Positions 8,330 to 43,705 of a DNA stretch of 44,067 bases are shown here, piece after piece. The translations under genes and the position numbers were made by a program. How positions within the stretch are numbered: the stretch's first letter is position 1; each line of letters starts with the position of its first letter. The stretch comes from Lachnospiraceae bacterium (GTDB taxonomy: Bacteria > Bacillota > Clostridia > Lachnospirales > Lachnospiraceae), in assembly GCA_017465845.1 (NCBI GenBank), contig JAFTVH010000018.1, forward strand, positions 1 through 44,067. The letters run 5' to 3'. Below the pieces are notes generated by a model. That model did no database searches. It worked only from the letters and a program-made list of their open reading frames with translations, and was not told the origin of the DNA.

Positions 8330-8690
8330 TGGCGGATAATAACATTTATTTGAGTTTCATCTGATGAAAATCACCATTTTAAAGCGATACCAACGGATAA
8401 AAACGCTATTTTCCCCAGTTTCATCTGATGAAAATCACCATTTTAAAGCGATACCAACGGATAAAAACGCTATTTTCCCCAGTTTCATCTGATGAAAATC
8501 ACCATTTTAAAGCGATACCAACGGATAAAAACTCTGTTTTTTCCAGTTTCGTCCGACGAAAATCACCACTTTGCAGCAATACCAACGGATAAAAACTTCA
8601 TTTTTTCTGGTTTTATCCGCTGAAAATGCCCAATTTAAAGAAATGTCATCGGATAAAAATATCATTTTTCCAGTTTCTGTCCGCTTCAAG
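8330..8690. repeat. 64-bp tandem repeat array (about 5.5 copies)
   Basis: Units begin at 8353, 8417, 8481, 8545, 8609 and 8672 (spacings 64, 64, 64, 64, 63), preceded by a partial unit from about 8330. Units 1 and 2 are identical, unit 3 differs only near its end, and units 4-6 diverge increasingly. Each contains a short palindrome: TTTCATC-T-GATGAAA in units 1-3 and TTTCGTC-C-GACGAAA in unit 4, where both arms changed together. A second pairing, CGGATAAAA with TTTTATCCG, is exact between units 4 and 5 (8586-8619). There are no spacers, so it is not CRISPR. The period is not a multiple of three, so it is not a repeated peptide. It lies in the 802-bp gap 8030-8831, which has no supported gene. 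Confidence 0.9.
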
Positions 8691-21522: not shown

Positions 21523-22344
21523 ATGCAGAACACAGACGATATAATTGAAATTGACTTAAAAGAAATATTTGTTGTTTTATTGAATAAATTGTGGCTGATT
21601 ATGCTCTGCGGTATCGTGACCGGAGTTATTAGCTTTTGCTATAGTTCCTTTCTGATCACGCCCCAGTATCAGTCTACTACCAAAGTATATATTCTCAATA
21701 ACCAGAACGGTGACAATGTGACTTACAGCGATTTGCAGATGGGGACGATTCTGACCAAGGACTACAAGGAATTGATCAAGAGCCGTAATGTATTGGAAAC
21801 CGTAATAGAAAATTGCAAGCTGGACGAGAAGTATGGCAGTTTGGCCGGGCGTGTGTTGGTGGAACCTATTTCTGATACTCGCATTATTGCTATCACTGTA
21901 GAGGATCCCGATCCTGAGACTGCCCGGTACCTGGCAGACGAGGTTCGTAAAGTGGCAGCGAAGCATATCAAGCAGGTAATGGATATTGAAGCTGTAAATG
22001 TGGTAGAGGAAGCTAATCTTCCGGAGAATCCTGCCAGTCCCAGTGTGGTAAAATGGACAGTTCTGGGATTAGCGTTGGGTATGTGTGCATGTGTTGGTGT
22101 GATTCTGCTGAAATACCTGTTGGATGATACCATAAAAACCAGTGAAGATGTAGAAAAATATCTGGGTCTCAGCACTTTGGCTATGATTCCTGTCATGGAG
22201 GATGAGGTAAGTGCCTCAAAGAAACGTAAAAATAGCAGACAGCGCACATATAATGCGGTGGATTTAGAATCTGAAGATAATAAGCCTCAGCATAAGGTTG
22301 AAGTGGAAGATTTGAAGGAATCTGACACGGAGGAGGGGAAATAG
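21523..22344 (+). CDS. cpsC: CpsC/YveK-type chain-length and kinase modulator (Wzz family)
   Basis: This 273-residue membrane protein has two transmembrane helices (about 20-42 and 176-198) around an extracellular region that carries TTKVYILNNQNGDNVTYSD, plus the proline-rich ENPASPS just before helix 2. These features define the Wzz/CapA-type polysaccharide co-polymerase that sets chain length and activates the CpsD kinase. The cytoplasmic tail of about 75 residues is longer than usual and highly charged. Ribosome site AGGAG lies at 21510-21514. The CpsD start follows the stop codon directly. Confidence 0.92.
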   Translation: MQNTDDIIEIDLKEIFVVLLNKLWLIMLCGIVTGVISFCYSSFLITPQYQSTTKVYILNNQNGDNVTYSDLQMGTILTKDYKELIKSRNVLETVIENCKLDEKYGSLAGRVLVEPISDTRIIAITVEDPDPETARYLADEVRKVAAKHIKQVMDIEAVNVVEEANLPENPASPSVVKWTVLGLALGMCACVGVILLKYLLDDTIKTSEDVEKYLGLSTLAMIPVMEDEVSASKKRKNSRQRTYNAVDLESEDNKPQHKVEVEDLKESDTEEGK

Positions 22345-23040
22345 ATGCAGAACATTGAATTAAAAGAGAGACTTCTGGATTATAGAAGTAAAGAGGCCTT
22401 TAAGATGCTTCGTACCAACATTGAATTTACCGGTGGTGATCTGAAAGTCATCTGCATTACCAGCTGTACTCCCAATGAAGGTAAAAGTAATATTTCCTTT
22501 GAAGTGGCAAAATCCTACGCGCAATTGGGGAAAAAGGTTCTGCTGGTGGACGCTGACTTACGTAAATCTGTGATGCGTCAGCGTCATAAGAAAGGAAAAG
22601 TACGTTTGGGATTAGTAAATTTTCTGGTAGGCAAATGCGAATTCGAGGAAGCTCTTTGCAGTACGGATGAAAAGAATCTGTATATGATTTTTTCCGGTCC
22701 GGTGCCTCCTAACCCCAGCGAACTTCTGAGCAATAAAAGATTTACAGAGATGATTGAGAAAGCTCGTGAAGAATACGATATGGTCATCATTGATACCCCG
22801 CCTTTGGGCAGCGTGATTGATGCTGCAGTGATTTCAAAATGCTGTGACGGTGCAGTGATTGTAATCGCTGCGGGTAATGTTAGCTACCGCTTTGCCCGTA
22901 AAATAAAGGAACAGTTGGAGGTGGCCGAATGTCGCATTTTAGGCTGCGTACTGAATAAGGTGGATCTGTCCGGTAAGAGCTACTATGGAAAATATTATGG
23001 ATCGTATTATGGTCAATACTATGGCAATTATGGAGAGTAA
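22345..23040 (+). CDS. cpsD: CpsD/CapB-type autophosphorylating tyrosine kinase
   Basis: This 231-residue BY-kinase has the Walker A motif PNEGKSN with Lys47, Walker A' VLLVDADLRKS and Walker B VIIDTPPLG. The C-terminal tail is a cluster of YYG repeats (last 20 residues, nine tyrosines), the autophosphorylation sites. It works with the CpsC protein at the membrane and is dephosphorylated by the CpsB phosphatase. Ribosome site GGAGGGG lies within the end of the CpsC gene; the start codon immediately follows that gene's stop, indicating translational coupling. Confidence 0.94.
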   Translation: MQNIELKERLLDYRSKEAFKMLRTNIEFTGGDLKVICITSCTPNEGKSNISFEVAKSYAQLGKKVLLVDADLRKSVMRQRHKKGKVRLGLVNFLVGKCEFEEALCSTDEKNLYMIFSGPVPPNPSELLSNKRFTEMIEKAREEYDMVIIDTPPLGSVIDAAVISKCCDGAVIVIAAGNVSYRFARKIKEQLEVAECRILGCVLNKVDLSGKSYYGKYYGSYYGQYYGNYGE

Positions 23041-23100
23041 AAGCAAGACATGCTCTAAGGATGATTAATACATTTAGTACCTAATGATTGGAGTATAAAT

Positions 23101-24564
23101 ATGCACAAGAAAAATGTGTCGGATTGGCACAAGCATTTGGATTTTATGGTGGTAGATGTAATCTGCCTGCATATAGCATTCTTTCTGGCGTATTTATTCC
23201 GCCACAAGGTGTGGGGGATGTATCAGGAGCAAAATTATCGTCAGATTGTGATTATCATGAGTGTCATAGACGTGTTAGTGGCAATATTGTTTTCTTCTTT
23301 CAAGAACGTACTGAAGCGGGGATATTTTATAGAATTTACAGCTGCATTTAAGCACGTATGTCTGGTGGAGTGTATCACTATTTTTTATGTGTTTACCATG
23401 CAGAAGGGGACAGATTATTCCCGTATTGTATTTTATATTTTCCCGGTCATTTATCTATTGCTGACTACGGTAAGCAGATATCTGTGGAAGAATTATCTGA
23501 AGAAAAATGTAAAGCTTCATAAGATTCGTTCATTATTATTAGTGACCACTATGAAGCAGGCGGAAGAAAGTATTACAGAATTGCAAAATAATCCATATGA
23601 GCATTTTCTTCTAAAAGGTGTAGTATTAATGAAGGAACCGGGTGAGGAGAATGGTCAAATTAAAGAAATTCTGAACGTGCCGGTAATAGCCGGTAGCGCA
23701 GATGTGGCAGAGTATTGCCTGAATGAATGGGTGGATGCAGCTATGATCGTACTGCCTGTCGAGGTTCCCTATCCCAAGGAATTGATCGAAAAATTCCAGA
23801 AGATGGGGATTGTAGTACATAGAGCAATTGCCAGCAAATATAATGATTCTGATTGCAAACAGATTGTAGAGCGAATCGGTAACTACACAGTGTTGACTAC
23901 CAGTATGAATTATGCGTCCTCTGAGGAACTGTTTCTAAAGAGAGCGATGGATATCATCGGTGGTTTGGTGGGATGTATCTTAACAGGTATCATTTGTATA
24001 CTCTTTGGTCCTATTATTTACATGCAGTCTCCGGGACCGATCATCTTTACCCAGACCAGGGTGGGGAGAAATGGACGAAAATTTAAAATCTATAAAATTC
24101 GTACCATGTATATGGATGCAGAGGAACGCAAAAAAGAACTGATGCAGTACAACAAGCTGGGCGATGAAAAGATGTTCAAGCTGGACTATGATCCTCGTAT
24201 TATCGGGAATAAAAAACTTCCCGATGGAACTATAAAAAAGGGAATCGGCAGCTTTCTGCGAGAATATAGTCTGGATGAATTCCCTCAGATGTTCAATATT
24301 TTGCGTGGGGACATGAGCTTGGTGGGTACCAGACCACCGACCGTGGACGAGTGGGAAAAATATGAGCTGCATCATAGAGCACGATTGGCGTTTCGACCGG
24401 GGCTTACCGGTATGTGGCAGGTGAGCGGTAGAAGCAGCATCACAGATTTTGAGGAAGTGGTACGGTTGGATACAAAGTATATCAGTGAGTGGAGTTTGGG
24501 GTTAGATGTGAAGATAATTGCGAAGACTGTGTTAACAGTAGTGAAGAAGAGTGGCGCAGTGTAA
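23101..24564 (+). CDS. Priming undecaprenyl-phosphate sugar phosphotransferase (CpsE/WbaP type)
   Basis: This 487-residue protein starts polymer assembly by moving a sugar-1-phosphate onto undecaprenyl phosphate at the membrane. It has four to five N-terminal transmembrane helices (within 1-135), a soluble middle domain, another helix near 288-310, and the bacterial sugar transferase domain at about 279-487. Conserved stretches include RAMDIIGG, KIYKIRTM, FLREYSLDEFPQMFNIL, LVGTRPPT and RPGLTGMWQVSGRS. Ribosome site TTGGAG lies before ATG 23101. The sugar used (glucose or galactose) cannot be told. A terminator-like hairpin follows. Confidence 0.93.
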   Translation: MHKKNVSDWHKHLDFMVVDVICLHIAFFLAYLFRHKVWGMYQEQNYRQIVIIMSVIDVLVAILFSSFKNVLKRGYFIEFTAAFKHVCLVECITIFYVFTMQKGTDYSRIVFYIFPVIYLLLTTVSRYLWKNYLKKNVKLHKIRSLLLVTTMKQAEESITELQNNPYEHFLLKGVVLMKEPGEENGQIKEILNVPVIAGSADVAEYCLNEWVDAAMIVLPVEVPYPKELIEKFQKMGIVVHRAIASKYNDSDCKQIVERIGNYTVLTTSMNYASSEELFLKRAMDIIGGLVGCILTGIICILFGPIIYMQSPGPIIFTQTRVGRNGRKFKIYKIRTMYMDAEERKKELMQYNKLGDEKMFKLDYDPRIIGNKKLPDGTIKKGIGSFLREYSLDEFPQMFNILRGDMSLVGTRPPTVDEWEKYELHHRARLAFRPGLTGMWQVSGRSSITDFEEVVRLDTKYISEWSLGLDVKIIAKTVLTVVKKSGAV

Positions 24565-39866: not shown

Positions 39867-40601
39867 TTGAAGATTTGGAGGAAGCTTTTGGCTGTGCCGG
39901 TGCTGGTGCTGATGTGCTTGACAGTCGGCACGATGCCTACGGTGCAGGCTGCAGAAGCAGACAGTCGCGGCCGGGATTATTCCGAACTGGAACGGCAGAT
40001 TGGAATTGCCAATGGTCTGGAGTACTATGATTATACAAAGGAAAGCTGGGAAGTACTCAGCAGTATGGTGGAGGCCGGCAATAAACGAATGGCTGATGCT
40101 GAGGATCAGAGCAAATTGGATGCAGCTGCGGAAGATATTCAGTATGCCATCGAAAATCTTGTAAAAATGGACTATAGTCCCTTGTTAAAAGCATTGGATA
40201 TGGTGTATGCTAAAATTGACGAGAATCCGGAATTGCACGATGTGTGGTACCGTTTGGACAAGGCCGTAGATAAAGCAAGACCCTTGTTGGTCAGTGGAGA
40301 TCAGGAAGCTGTCAATGAAATGGCAGGACTCCTGAATGAAATCATGGATGAACTTTCTGCATATGATGATGGCACCGTAGAACCGGAGGTTATTGTGCAG
40401 GAGGTGAAGGTGGAAGTACCGCCTACCTCAGATTTTTGCAATATTCCGGGGCATCGTACCTGGCCGGTATTATTTGCAGTCAGTGCAGCACTGAATGTGC
40501 TGTTGTTTGCAGCGCTTAGTTATGTATTGCTTAAGAAACGCAACACTACGGATAATACACCTTTGGTCAATTATGACATTGAGGATGATGTAACTTTATA
40601 G
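39867..40601 (+). CDS. Secreted, membrane-anchored protein with FIVAR-like domain
   Basis: This 244-residue protein has a signal peptide (1-29, ending TVQAAEA), a helical region with one FIVAR-like repeat (about 45-93: YDYTKESWEVLSSMVEAG, then AAAEDIQYAIENL), a second helical stretch, a short spacer, and a C-terminal transmembrane helix (199-222) followed by a 20-residue acidic cytoplasmic tail. FIVAR domains are found in cell-surface proteins and may bind sugars. The start is TTG 39867, fixed by a strong TAAGGAGGA site. It is in the same transcription unit as the HD-GYP/EAL-like gene, 70 nt downstream. Confidence 0.8.
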   Translation: MKIWRKLLAVPVLVLMCLTVGTMPTVQAAEADSRGRDYSELERQIGIANGLEYYDYTKESWEVLSSMVEAGNKRMADAEDQSKLDAAAEDIQYAIENLVKMDYSPLLKALDMVYAKIDENPELHDVWYRLDKAVDKARPLLVSGDQEAVNEMAGLLNEIMDELSAYDDGTVEPEVIVQEVKVEVPPTSDFCNIPGHRTWPVLFAVSAALNVLLFAALSYVLLKKRNTTDNTPLVNYDIEDDVTL

Positions 40602-40671: not shown

Positions 40672-42150
40672 ATGGCAGAAATAGAGAATAAATGGAAGCG
40701 AACGGAGTATGAAACCTGGGATGAAGCCTTTCATGGTTTAGCTCCGATGATCAGACAGCAATCTGTTCGTGTCGCTGCCTATACGCAGGTATTGTATGTG
40801 CAGGCCTGTGCTGTGAAATTCTGCATGTATACCAAGGTGGGTACGGAGCGTATGCAAGGCAAATATGCTGATTTGGCATATAAATGTGGATTGTATCACC
40901 AGCTGGGTAAGGCGCTTGTTCCGCATGAGTATCAGATCTGGGTAAGAGACTTTACCGAGGAAGAGCAGGCAGTGTATAAAAAATACACCACCGATGGTCG
41001 AACTTTAGTGGCAAACTTGCAGGCGCGCAGTGAACGTGCTTGGCTAAGACGAAAAGGGGAAGGAGTAGAACAGCCAACAAGAAATATTCCCTGGCTGATG
41101 ATAAGAGAAAGCTGTGAGCAACATATGGAGCGCTGGGATGGCAGCGGTTATCCGCTGCAGCTGGAGGGGGATGATATCAGCCCCATTGCACAGATTGTAG
41201 GTCTTGCCAAAGAACTGGACAGACTGGCTTCAGAAACAAAATCTGAGGATCCCTTTGCAGAAGCTTTTCAAACTCTCGTCGGACAATCAGGTACCCTGTG
41301 GAATCCGGAATTGATTGACATACTTAAGACTTGCCGATCAAAATGTCGGGCTGTCTATACCAAGCATATTCACTATACCATGACACTTCCAAAGACCATT
41401 CATTTGGTAGAGAAGAGAAAGGAACGCCCCATGGGTCTGAGATATCGCCCGATGGTAAGCGATACCCAAGGTACGGTGGTGGCATATGAAGCGATTCCAT
41501 GGTTTGGCGGTATTCAAGGCAGACCGGGGGAGACGGAGGATGCCTCAGAATTAGAGGCCATGCTGGTGCGCAAGAAGCTGGTGGAGGATATCTCATCATA
41601 TTTCCTTTATGAGGCGGCGGATACGGTTCTTCGTATCGAAAACTGTAAACTGCAGATTCAGGCGGTGCTGCTGCAGATGTTGCCAAGCTTTTACCAGCTC
41701 AATACCCAGTTGCAGCAATTTAACCAGTTGTTCAAGGATCAGCCGATCCCAAGAGAAAAGCTGCTGTTGACTGTGCCGGCGCAGACTGTGTTTACATCCA
41801 ATAAGAAGAATATAGAGCAGATAGAGCGATATCTGCGCAATGGAATCCAGTTGGTTTTGGATGGATATGATCCTGAAAAACATGGAGAAAAACTCTCTCC
41901 GGAACAGCTTAAGGCCATGGGATTTACCTATTTGCGCCTGGCACCGGAATTGTATCAGAAGCAGGAAACTGCCAATATGATCATTAAGTTGCAGGAGGCA
42001 GACTTTACCGTCTTAGGTGGAGGTGCTGACAGTCAGGAGATATTGGAGTGGTTGAGTGCCTGCGGCGTTGCTTTTATGAGCGGTACCATCACCGGTGTTG
42101 TGGTGGAAGAAGATGAACTGATCCGTGATGGCTTGAATAGAGAGCGGTGA
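40672..42150 (+). CDS. HD-GYP/EAL-like fusion protein with degenerate active sites
   Basis: This 492-residue soluble protein has an N-terminal half related to HD-GYP cyclic-di-GMP phosphodiesterases: YHQLGK (His76-Gln77 instead of the metal-binding His-Asp) and HMERWDGSGYP (151-161), where GYP is kept. The second half (about 262-485) is EAL-like: YRPMVSD, VAYEAIPW with Glu273 in EAI, LVLDGYDPE and FTYLRLAPELY, but most metal ligands are absent. It is therefore more likely a binding or regulatory protein than an active phosphodiesterase; this is inference. TATGGAGGTGATGG precedes ATG 40672. It ends 4 nt before the TEY-repeat gene. Confidence 0.75.
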   Translation: MAEIENKWKRTEYETWDEAFHGLAPMIRQQSVRVAAYTQVLYVQACAVKFCMYTKVGTERMQGKYADLAYKCGLYHQLGKALVPHEYQIWVRDFTEEEQAVYKKYTTDGRTLVANLQARSERAWLRRKGEGVEQPTRNIPWLMIRESCEQHMERWDGSGYPLQLEGDDISPIAQIVGLAKELDRLASETKSEDPFAEAFQTLVGQSGTLWNPELIDILKTCRSKCRAVYTKHIHYTMTLPKTIHLVEKRKERPMGLRYRPMVSDTQGTVVAYEAIPWFGGIQGRPGETEDASELEAMLVRKKLVEDISSYFLYEAADTVLRIENCKLQIQAVLLQMLPSFYQLNTQLQQFNQLFKDQPIPREKLLLTVPAQTVFTSNKKNIEQIERYLRNGIQLVLDGYDPEKHGEKLSPEQLKAMGFTYLRLAPELYQKQETANMIIKLQEADFTVLGGGADSQEILEWLSACGVAFMSGTITGVVVEEDELIRDGLNRER

Positions 42151-42154
42151 TCCC

Positions 42155-43705
42155 ATGGAAAAGAAGAGAAAATTTGCCTTTAGGCAACCACTGGATCGAC
42201 TGGAAGTATATATGCTGGCTGCCGACAACCCTGTGGGAAAAAGGCAGCTTAGACCGATCTTCAGGAGAAAGCGCAGTAAAACAATTCTGACCCGTGAGCA
42301 GGTGACTGCCATCAAACGTGGACGTCGGGTGCTTCGAAGGGAGATGAAAGAGCGCGGAATCAAGCGCTTAAATGACTTCGACCAGATGGCGACCAGCCTG
42401 GGGCTTTATTTTGATCGTAAAGGTTTGCTCTGGCCTTTGATCCTATGGTTCAGCAAAGGCAACACAGCGCTGAAGATTCTGGCGACCACCACAGTGCTGA
42501 CTACTGTACTGACAGCGACAGAGTATATAACGGAGTATATTACAGAGTATATAACCGAGTATGTGACAGAGTATCTTACAGAATATGTTACCGAGTACAA
42601 GACGGAATATCTGACGGAATATATCACGGAATATCTTACGGAGTTTCTGGATAAGGACAGATTTACCATCAGTCTTTCAGACAAAATGCTGAAGACTGGG
42701 TTTGAATTGAGTGAAAAGCCCTTTGATGATCCCAGTTTCAATGCGGAGAATGACTCAAAACAGGCACTTTTTGCAATTCCGGTTACGAAGATCCCTTGTA
42801 TCTCTATTGCCCAGATTCCTCACTATGTAGACGAATTGGATAACAATACTGTCAAGGAATACCTGACCTACACTTTCTATTGCCGCTATATTAACAAAAA
42901 TGCGGAGAGAGATATGTCCGGAGATCTGGATCAATATGCGGTTAATTATGACTGGGGTATCCGTATTCACACCGAAGGTTTGAATACCACTACCAATCCA
43001 CAGTCCGGTGAAGCGGAAATGTTGGAAGGTGGAGAAGTCCCGGAAGGTCAGGTAAAGGTTTCTGATGCTGTATGGGTTATGGTAATTCAGGATGATGAGG
43101 TGATTCTCTGTGCTAAATCGGAAGTAAATGAAAACGGTGAATTGATTCCTCAGATGCTTCCTACCCAGCATGTTTTAGAGACTCAGCGGATTGCTTATAT
43201 GGACCGATCCATTGAATATATCAATAAGGGGCTTGCCAAGATCCACCCTGATCTGACGGTGGATGATATCTGTGATCTGGAATCCAAATATGGAAACCAG
43301 GCAGACAGCATCAGTGAAAAGATTGAGGCATACTTTGACAAGGAAGGTATTCAGCATCTGACCAGACTGATGCTTCGCACAGAAAACTGGCGTGAACGGT
43401 ACAAGATCGTTGGTGCTTCGGATAACTACAACTACTATCAGGTAATCGCGGAGCAATTCGTTTCGGATGAACTGGTGGTGGAGCGAAAACGTGAACAGGT
43501 TCTTCCCTGGGTCGATAATCGCAATGAAGAGTACCACAAATACACTGTTGTCATCTGGTTGGAGGGTGATGATCCCCAGTGTCAAAATGAATTGATGGAC
43601 GGCTTTATCGGTATGGACTTCCAGATTAAAGCCGAGGGTGAGGACTACGTGGATAGTATCGTAACACCTGCCACTCCCTCTACAGAGGCAGGAGGAACTA
43701 CATAA
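42155..43705 (+). CDS. Unknown membrane protein with 11-copy TEYx repeat
   Basis: I do not recognise this 516-residue protein. Residues 1-95 are basic and probably cytoplasmic. A hydrophobic segment lies near 93-120 and is followed at once by eleven 4-residue repeats of the form T-E-Y-x (residues 122-165), then a large, mostly acidic, probably extracellular region up to a Thr/Pro-rich end (TPATPSTEAGG). The repeat register puts Glu and Tyr at every fourth position, so on a helix they form stripes. The gene follows the degenerate HD-GYP/EAL gene by 4 nt, so they are co-translated. Ribosome site: weak (GAGAGCGG). Function unknown; a membrane-spanning structural or sensor protein of the surface locus is one option. 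Confidence 0.8.
   Translation: MEKKRKFAFRQPLDRLEVYMLAADNPVGKRQLRPIFRRKRSKTILTREQVTAIKRGRRVLRREMKERGIKRLNDFDQMATSLGLYFDRKGLLWPLILWFSKGNTALKILATTTVLTTVLTATEYITEYITEYITEYVTEYLTEYVTEYKTEYLTEYITEYLTEFLDKDRFTISLSDKMLKTGFELSEKPFDDPSFNAENDSKQALFAIPVTKIPCISIAQIPHYVDELDNNTVKEYLTYTFYCRYINKNAERDMSGDLDQYAVNYDWGIRIHTEGLNTTTNPQSGEAEMLEGGEVPEGQVKVSDAVWVMVIQDDEVILCAKSEVNENGELIPQMLPTQHVLETQRIAYMDRSIEYINKGLAKIHPDLTVDDICDLESKYGNQADSISEKIEAYFDKEGIQHLTRLMLRTENWRERYKIVGASDNYNYYQVIAEQFVSDELVVERKREQVLPWVDNRNEEYHKYTVVIWLEGDDPQCQNELMDGFIGMDFQIKAEGEDYVDSIVTPATPSTEAGGTT
42518..42649 (+). repeat. 12-bp tandem coding repeat (11 units)
   Basis: Eleven in-frame 12-bp units of the type ACN-GAR-TAY-NNN encode TEYx. The third positions vary (GAG/GAA, ACA/ACG/ACC) and the fourth residue varies among I, V, L and K, so the repeat is old or under selection at protein level. 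The last unit is TEFL. Confidence 0.95.

Follow-up and report, generated by a model that had tools for sequence, protein, structure and literature searches.

A membrane-anchored clostridial protein with a four-residue repeat stalk, a candidate base for SipW-type surface fibres

The stretch of DNA considered here, hereafter the window, comprises 44,067 nucleotides from a Lachnospiraceae bacterium (assembly GCA_017465845.1, contig JAFTVH010000018.1). Close to its end lies a gene for a membrane-anchored protein in which a stalk, built of Thr-Glu-Tyr-x (TEYx) units, is placed between the membrane segment and a C-terminal ectodomain (Table 1). This protein is a real feature of a kind already known, that of the SipW/TasA-type subunits, and it belongs to a type of locus that has been little studied.

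Table 1. Features of the stalk gene and of its neighbours in the window (AF2, AlphaFold2; pLDDT, its predicted local distance difference test score).
Feature	Position	Strand	Basis
516-residue membrane-anchored member of an unnamed clostridial family, bearing the TEYx stalk	42155..43705	+	Open reading frame; no Pfam match
N-terminal alpha domain, probably cytoplasmic (residues about 16-92)	42200..42430	+	AF2 pLDDT, charge count
Membrane segment, Thr-rich and weakly hydrophobic (residues about 104-121)	42464..42517	+	Kyte-Doolittle; start of the predicted helix 104-147
Stalk of ten TEYx tetrads and one TEFL (residues 122-165)	42518..42649	+	Codons, periodicity, alignment, shuffles
Beta-sandwich ectodomain (residues about 168-498) with the C-terminal family motif HKYTVVIWLEGDDPQC	42656..43648	+	Alignment, hhalign, AF2
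Helical insert within the ectodomain (residues about 352-415)	43208..43399	+	Alignment, AF2; among the five stalked relatives only L100 has it
HD_5 and EAL protein, 4 nt upstream of the stalk gene	40672..42150	+	Pfam, spacing
244-residue protein of unassigned function, syntenic member of the cluster	39867..40601	+	36 of the 69 loci with sufficient flank have a homologue upstream
First part of a gene for a secreted subunit with SipW-type signal (STYAWF), truncated at the contig end	43883..44067	+	Start very like those of the L100 and L047 homologues

The repeat array and its clade

An earlier note on this DNA had described eleven four-residue units in strict register directly behind the predicted membrane segment, and both statements are confirmed. 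Three TEYI units are followed by TEYV, TEYL, TEYV, TEYK, TEYL, TEYI, TEYL and TEFL, with I, V or L at the fourth position of ten units and K in one; three or more consecutive TEYx units were obtained in 0 of 20,000 shuffles of the protein. The hydrophobic segment before the array is weak, since its best 19-residue Kyte-Doolittle mean (residues 104-122) is 1.26, compared with 1.69-1.97 in the five stalked relatives. At the DNA level, Tandem Repeats Finder reports degenerate 12-, 24- and 36-nucleotide arrays with 75-82% matches. The codons of the TEY columns depart from the consensus unit at 11 of 33 third positions and at 1 of 66 first or second positions (Fisher p 1.4e-5), which indicates that the residues of the stalk have been kept while the codons drifted and rules out recent slippage of a 12-nucleotide unit.

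The family to which the protein belongs is large. In the whole-protein search, a single match was found in the window genome; in the genus 7 of 101 genomes, and in the family 25 of 299, gave weak matches, the own genome included; seven of these 25 genomes, hit via TE-rich runs alone, were set aside. The 23 relatives aligned have 237-358 residues, a single hydrophobic segment and a C-terminal motif like DKYTVVIWLEGEDPEC. A scan of the named genomes with the single protein gave ten stretches matching a pattern, none of which encoded a relative; the profile scan yielded at least 567 relatives, and the results for named loci given below rest on the best 80 of them, ranked against L008 and thus biased to L008-like members. 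With the profile, 15 of 391 genomes of the class and 1 of 16 genomes in the family of G751 were matched. Only 7 other genomes of the 121 in the genus of the window genome have family members. The earlier note knew of no family with this design: the family exists and is large, and yet 65 members compared with Pfam gave no match at E≤0.001, and three scanned against NCBIfam gave none at E≤0.1. The family profile found no match among solved structures in a sequence search, Foldseek returned nothing from the PDB at E≤0.001, and the literature matches listed contained nothing on this protein family or on four-residue helical repeats.

The stalk is confined to a small part of this family. When the window protein is aligned with the 80 named and the 23 other relatives, which gives 104 rows with 100 distinct sequences, the junction between membrane segment and ectodomain is exactly 7 residues long in 98 rows. 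L103, from Anaerosporobacter faecicola, is one of the stalkless members. The six stalked rows have 44 residues in the window protein, 32 in L101 and 28 in L096, L097, L098 and L100, which corresponds to 11, 8 and 7 units. No stalk was seen at 8 further class-level junctions, out of 11 loci checked (ten from the class profile search and one from the genus search), as L042, L144 and L145 gave no junction. In a tree of 50 rows, from which columns filled in fewer than 30% of the rows had been removed, the six stalked sequences form one clade (SH-aLRT, the Shimodaira-Hasegawa-like approximate likelihood ratio test, 100), within which the window protein pairs with L100 (99); the stalkless L077 is adjacent. 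The window protein shares 42-49% identity with the other stalked members.

What the stalks keep is the spacing, not the tyrosine. Their sequences in L101 (VTQYITEYIQEFIDRIVERIVTE), L096 (VEYIQQIVTEYIEKIVEQIVQQ) and L100 (VTQTITQTITETITETITET, (TITE)n-like) have in common a unit in which two positions, mostly hydrophobic, aromatic or Thr, precede two that are polar. In the sister L100, Thr replaces the Tyr of the window protein over most of the stalk, and in the other stalks Tyr is interspersed mainly with Ile and Phe. The best hydrophobic period, a rough estimate in each case because the stretches are short, is 4.00 in the window protein, 3.95 in L100, 4.05 in L096, 3.85 in L097, 4.05 in L098 and 3.95 in L101. 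The power at period 4.0 exceeds that of shuffles (n=5000) with p 0.0046 or better in each of the six, and in every one the hydrophobic moment peaks at 90 or 95 degrees per residue. The lengths from the conserved TT to the DRF motif differ by 16 residues between the window protein (50) and L100 (34), and by 4 between L101 (40) and L096-098 (36). The codon substitutions, the conserved period and the largely unit-wise length changes point to selection on the protein rather than to neutral expansion.

Runs of similar composition are found elsewhere. A search with the 44-residue stalk matched 9 of 391 genomes, the window's own included; in the other eight, TEYx units were present only in L193 (a 21-residue frame), SEYI units in L189 (a 70-residue frame) and a long TE-rich protein in L194, whereas L190-L192 had none of the patterns. 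EYAK/EYAE units were also observed in a 310-residue frame of L196, apparently an unrelated protein. The tetrad V-T-E-x runs of L016 and L015 (VTEEVTER types) resemble the stalk in that each four-residue unit combines Thr and Glu with one hydrophobic and one variable residue, but their proteins have no visible relation to the family and were matched solely through the repeat.

Secreted paralogues and gene neighbourhood

The ectodomain is homologous to a class of secreted neighbours. In hhalign, the family profile aligned to that of twelve secreted neighbours with 97.3% probability (E 2.3e-11, 140 columns, 14% identity). The site [TS][YF][AT]W is present in all twelve secreted rows, which were selected partly on this site. 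It occurs in none of the 104 anchored rows, ten of which match a looser cleavage pattern, and, judged by sequence pattern, the window junction carries no SipW-type cleavage site. Given the profile homology and the missing [TS][YF][AT]W site, the window protein looks like a paralogue of the secreted subunits that stays anchored and is not processed. The twelve secreted subunits had no NCBIfam match at E≤0.01, one weak Pfam match among them (DUF6520, E 0.0068), and a single chance-level match in a sequence search of solved structures. The TasA/camelysin model PF12389 matched nothing in the window genome, with a positive Bacillus subtilis control.

The surroundings of the anchored gene are conserved in the relatives. 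The stalk gene ends 177 nucleotides before the secreted subunit gene, and 54 of 75 loci have an HD homologue at a distance below 500 nucleotides upstream of the anchored gene. For the 61 named loci with at least 8.5 kb downstream, frames on the + strand were counted with seeds taken mostly from loci of the same family (to judge by length, seed L050 and L103 are one contig): 60 of them have a secreted-type subunit, 56 a SipW-like peptidase, 55 an AAA+ protein and 54 a DUF2357 protein, the last three occurring together in 54. Within 10 kb downstream, the respective counts are 60, 54, 53 and 52. In some loci, such as L126 and L136, the anchored gene is instead preceded by the part with peptidase, AAA+ and DUF2357 genes. 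The two SipW-like peptidases scanned score above the TIGR02228 cut-off and below that of NF046067, and the DUF2357 assignment comes from PF09823 (41.2 bits in L050, cut-off 23.3), while the L100 DUF2357 protein had no PADLOC match. Of the AAA+ proteins, two were scanned and matched AAA_5 below the Pfam cut-off, that of L100 matches the PADLOC candidate PDC-M26A (E 1.2e-41), and seven share a GT-x-N-N-D-D motif region compatible with NxD and NxxD alike; the N-terminal part of one gave a single, sub-cut-off MscL match.

HD-GYP proteins carry HD-x-GK, and the reference motifs of EAL domains are EAL and a DDFG-like one; in the HD_5 and EAL protein upstream of the stalk gene, HQLGK stands at the HD site and AYEAI at the EAL site, and no DDFG-like motif is present in the stretch inspected. 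By these motifs both domains look catalytically degenerate, and the protein is possibly a receptor of cyclic di-GMP rather than an enzyme.

The clustering of peptidase, AAA+ and DUF2357 genes in the relatives resembles the CoCoPALM systems, which are named in one passage of PMC11090510 and deferred there to a later paper. The window contig stops before the positions at which these three genes would be expected, and it is in the relatives that they are observed. The window assembly, which is 85% complete, gave no further match to the AAA+ and DUF2357 queries, an empty result that shows little.

Mis-binning of the contig was considered and rejected, as by tetranucleotide profile the contig as a whole looks native. 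Of 20 stretches fetched, 8 under 10 kb were excluded, and the first 20 kb of the window correlate with 12 other contigs of the assembly at a mean of 0.72 (contigs among themselves, 0.68-0.78). The value is 0.59 for 24-44 kb, equal to that of the L100 locus (0.59), and 0.38 for the last 5 kb, a short stretch. The end that carries the stalk gene, however, may have been acquired. In the tree the gene clusters with metagenome-assembled genomes labelled Oscillospiraceae, and the six aligned family members of its own genus belong to other subtypes; its history would be one of either horizontal transfer or patchy loss. Elsewhere on the contig, positions 8353-8659 hold an intergenic tandem array with a 64-bp unit (4.8 copies, 88% matches), the first copies almost identical and the later ones drifted.

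Predicted structure and topology of the stalk

Both stalks modelled by AlphaFold2 come out helical. In the window protein, residues 104-147 and 150-166 are helical and the N-terminal block has pLDDT 84-96 over residues 21-90; in L101 the membrane helix and the stalk form a single helix (residues 103-155, with pLDDT 91-95 over 111-150). The residues before the membrane segment are rich in positive charge (27 K+R and 10 D+E in residues 1-92) and those after the stalk in negative charge (32 and 66), a pattern by which the stalk is probably extracytoplasmic. This suggests that it lies outside the cell, away from the CpsD-type kinase, since such kinases are cytoplasmic. With the rise of an alpha-helix of 1.5 Angstrom per residue, the 44-residue stalk would be about 66 Angstrom long.

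According to the cited part of one study, the hydrophobic periodicity accessible to coiled coils is about 3.33-3.9 residues per turn, with a ceiling near 3.9, the value of 3.8 in YadA as the most extreme case and 4.0 beyond the accessible range (PMC4786415). By the rough estimates given above, five of the six stalks peak above 3.9 and L097 (3.85) falls inside the range. The stalks would then be either single helices with a hydrophobic stripe winding round them, or assemblies packed in a way absent from that account. A bolder proposal, which we regard as distinctly unlikely, takes the stalk to be a naturally occurring helical rod whose four-residue units repeat exactly. Such rods would assemble, possibly into a bundle of strong right-handed twist or by means of pi-type turns, with a period that has so far been considered out of reach for coiled coils; the stalk would then be the adjustable base of a fibre machine for which the McrB-like AAA+ and DUF2357 pair provides the drive.

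A proposed fibre anchor and its alternatives

The explanation that we favour, with somewhat more confidence than doubt, is that the protein is a membrane-anchored, uncleaved subunit of fibre type, which would form the base for the secreted subunits and be held off the membrane by the helical tetrad spacer. A probably cytoplasmic N-terminal domain would be followed by one membrane helix, the stalk and an ectodomain of the secreted-subunit type. In TasA fibres, each subunit lends its N-terminal strand to complete the following one, and TapA is thought to give the first strand and to share in anchoring (PMC9674648, PMC10151520, cited passages). By analogy, the anchored paralogue most likely acts as the base to which subunits processed by SipW would add, probably via donor-strand exchange, and in one clade the membrane helix would be extended by 7, 8 or 11 units into a spacer lifting the ectodomain. 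The computations bear on the anatomy, the homology to the secreted subunits, the gene context in the relatives, the restriction to one clade, the period near 4.0 and the selection on the residues, whereas the surface fibre, the anchor role, the donor-strand mechanism, the spacer function, the topology and the oligomeric state are inferences. Among the functions proposed earlier for the repeat, the stiff stalk is the one that survives, as a helical spacer of variable length between membrane and ectodomain; a role as interaction zipper is possible.

Two observations speak for a neutral reading of the array. Relatives without any repeat in the same context, which the earlier note had named as a sign of neutral expansion, make up most of the alignment, and the TT-to-DRF lengths of L100 and L096-098 differ by 2 residues, so that whole units hold within subclades and not strictly between them. 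The stalk might thus be a neutral or nearly neutral, microsatellite-like expansion with no function of its own, as its absence from the class-level junctions and the TE-rich runs in unrelated proteins of related genomes would also suggest. Neutrality is nevertheless not what we conclude from the repeat-less relatives, and we hold it to be quite improbable, because the units vary at third codon positions and hardly at first or second ones, five relatives hold a period near 4 with different residues, and the array is confined to one precise junction. Unlikely, though less so, is a signalling stalk, in which the helix would couple the ectodomain to the cytoplasmic domain and report fibre assembly to the HD-EAL protein or the AAA+ complex. 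The N-terminal domain, conserved in the stalk clade and confidently modelled, the frequent HD homologue directly upstream and the unbroken helix from membrane to stalk in L101 agree with such a role; on the other hand, no domain is recognised in the N-terminal part (all Pfam rows fall below cut-off), and most members with an HD neighbour are stalkless.

The residues themselves have suggested two further readings. The T/Y/I-rich array could form extended strands that associate between molecules as a beta-rich, amyloid-like zipper: by Chou-Fasman tables, beta propensity is slightly over alpha in four of the six stalks (mean beta/alpha 1.11/1.05 in the window protein, 1.16/1.03 in L100, 1.17/1.14 in L096 and 1.15/1.11 in L101), and the (TITE)n-like stalk of L100 would suit it. 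Such a zipper is very improbable given the helical models and the low hydrophobic moment at 160-180 degrees in all six stalks. The array had also been proposed as a possible site of tyrosine modification, with a CpsD-type kinase pointed out 19 kb away. That gene does exist upstream at about this distance (22345-23040, AAA_31), and the acidic-aromatic units are regularly spaced. However, Tyr is not kept in the sister L100, the stalk is predicted to be extracytoplasmic, and within the flanks examined, which reach up to 10 kb, 3 of 80 family loci have a CpsD homologue, none of them among the five stalked loci; on topology, residue conservation and linkage, phosphorylation via CpsD was rejected, and a modification platform served by that kinase is hardly credible. 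The CpsD-type gene is part of a group of capsule-type genes at 21523-24564, together with Wzz and a bacterial sugar transferase.

With this protein, a putative anchor is at hand for a CoCoPALM-like locus of surface-fibre type that is widespread in gut Clostridia and still uncharacterised, and how such fibres attach to a Gram-positive cell becomes a testable question. The series of stalks with 7, 8 and 11 units offers tests of coiled-coil packing at period 4.0 and of display distance against stalk length. Non-heptad coiled-coil stalks such as that of YadA (local period 3.8) are likewise extracellular, membrane-proximal helical spacers built of repeats, and differ from the window clade in that its period of about 4.0 exceeds the range given as accessible in the cited part of that work (PMC4786415). 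Compared with TasA, TapA and SipW of B. subtilis as described in the cited passages (PMC9674648, PMC10151520), the window protein seems to escape cleavage and to cross the membrane once, and it bears a probably cytoplasmic domain as well as a stalk of tetrads; the clusters of the relatives have AAA+ and DUF2357 genes added, and the window genome lacks a PF12389 match. The sipW-bsaABCRSD locus of Clostridium perfringens is alike in its clostridial, SipW-dependent, polymer-forming subunits and accessory secreted proteins, and its description, in the part cited, includes neither an anchored paralogue nor a McrB/DUF2357 pair (PMC7395162). Similar in gene content are the CoCoPALM systems, with a signal peptidase family protein, a McrB-like protein and a McrC-type DUF2357 protein; in the relatives, a peptidase and a DUF2357 protein of these kinds cluster with an AAA+ protein that may be McrB-like, and the cited description of those systems mentions neither a membrane-anchored subunit nor a stalk (PMC11090510).
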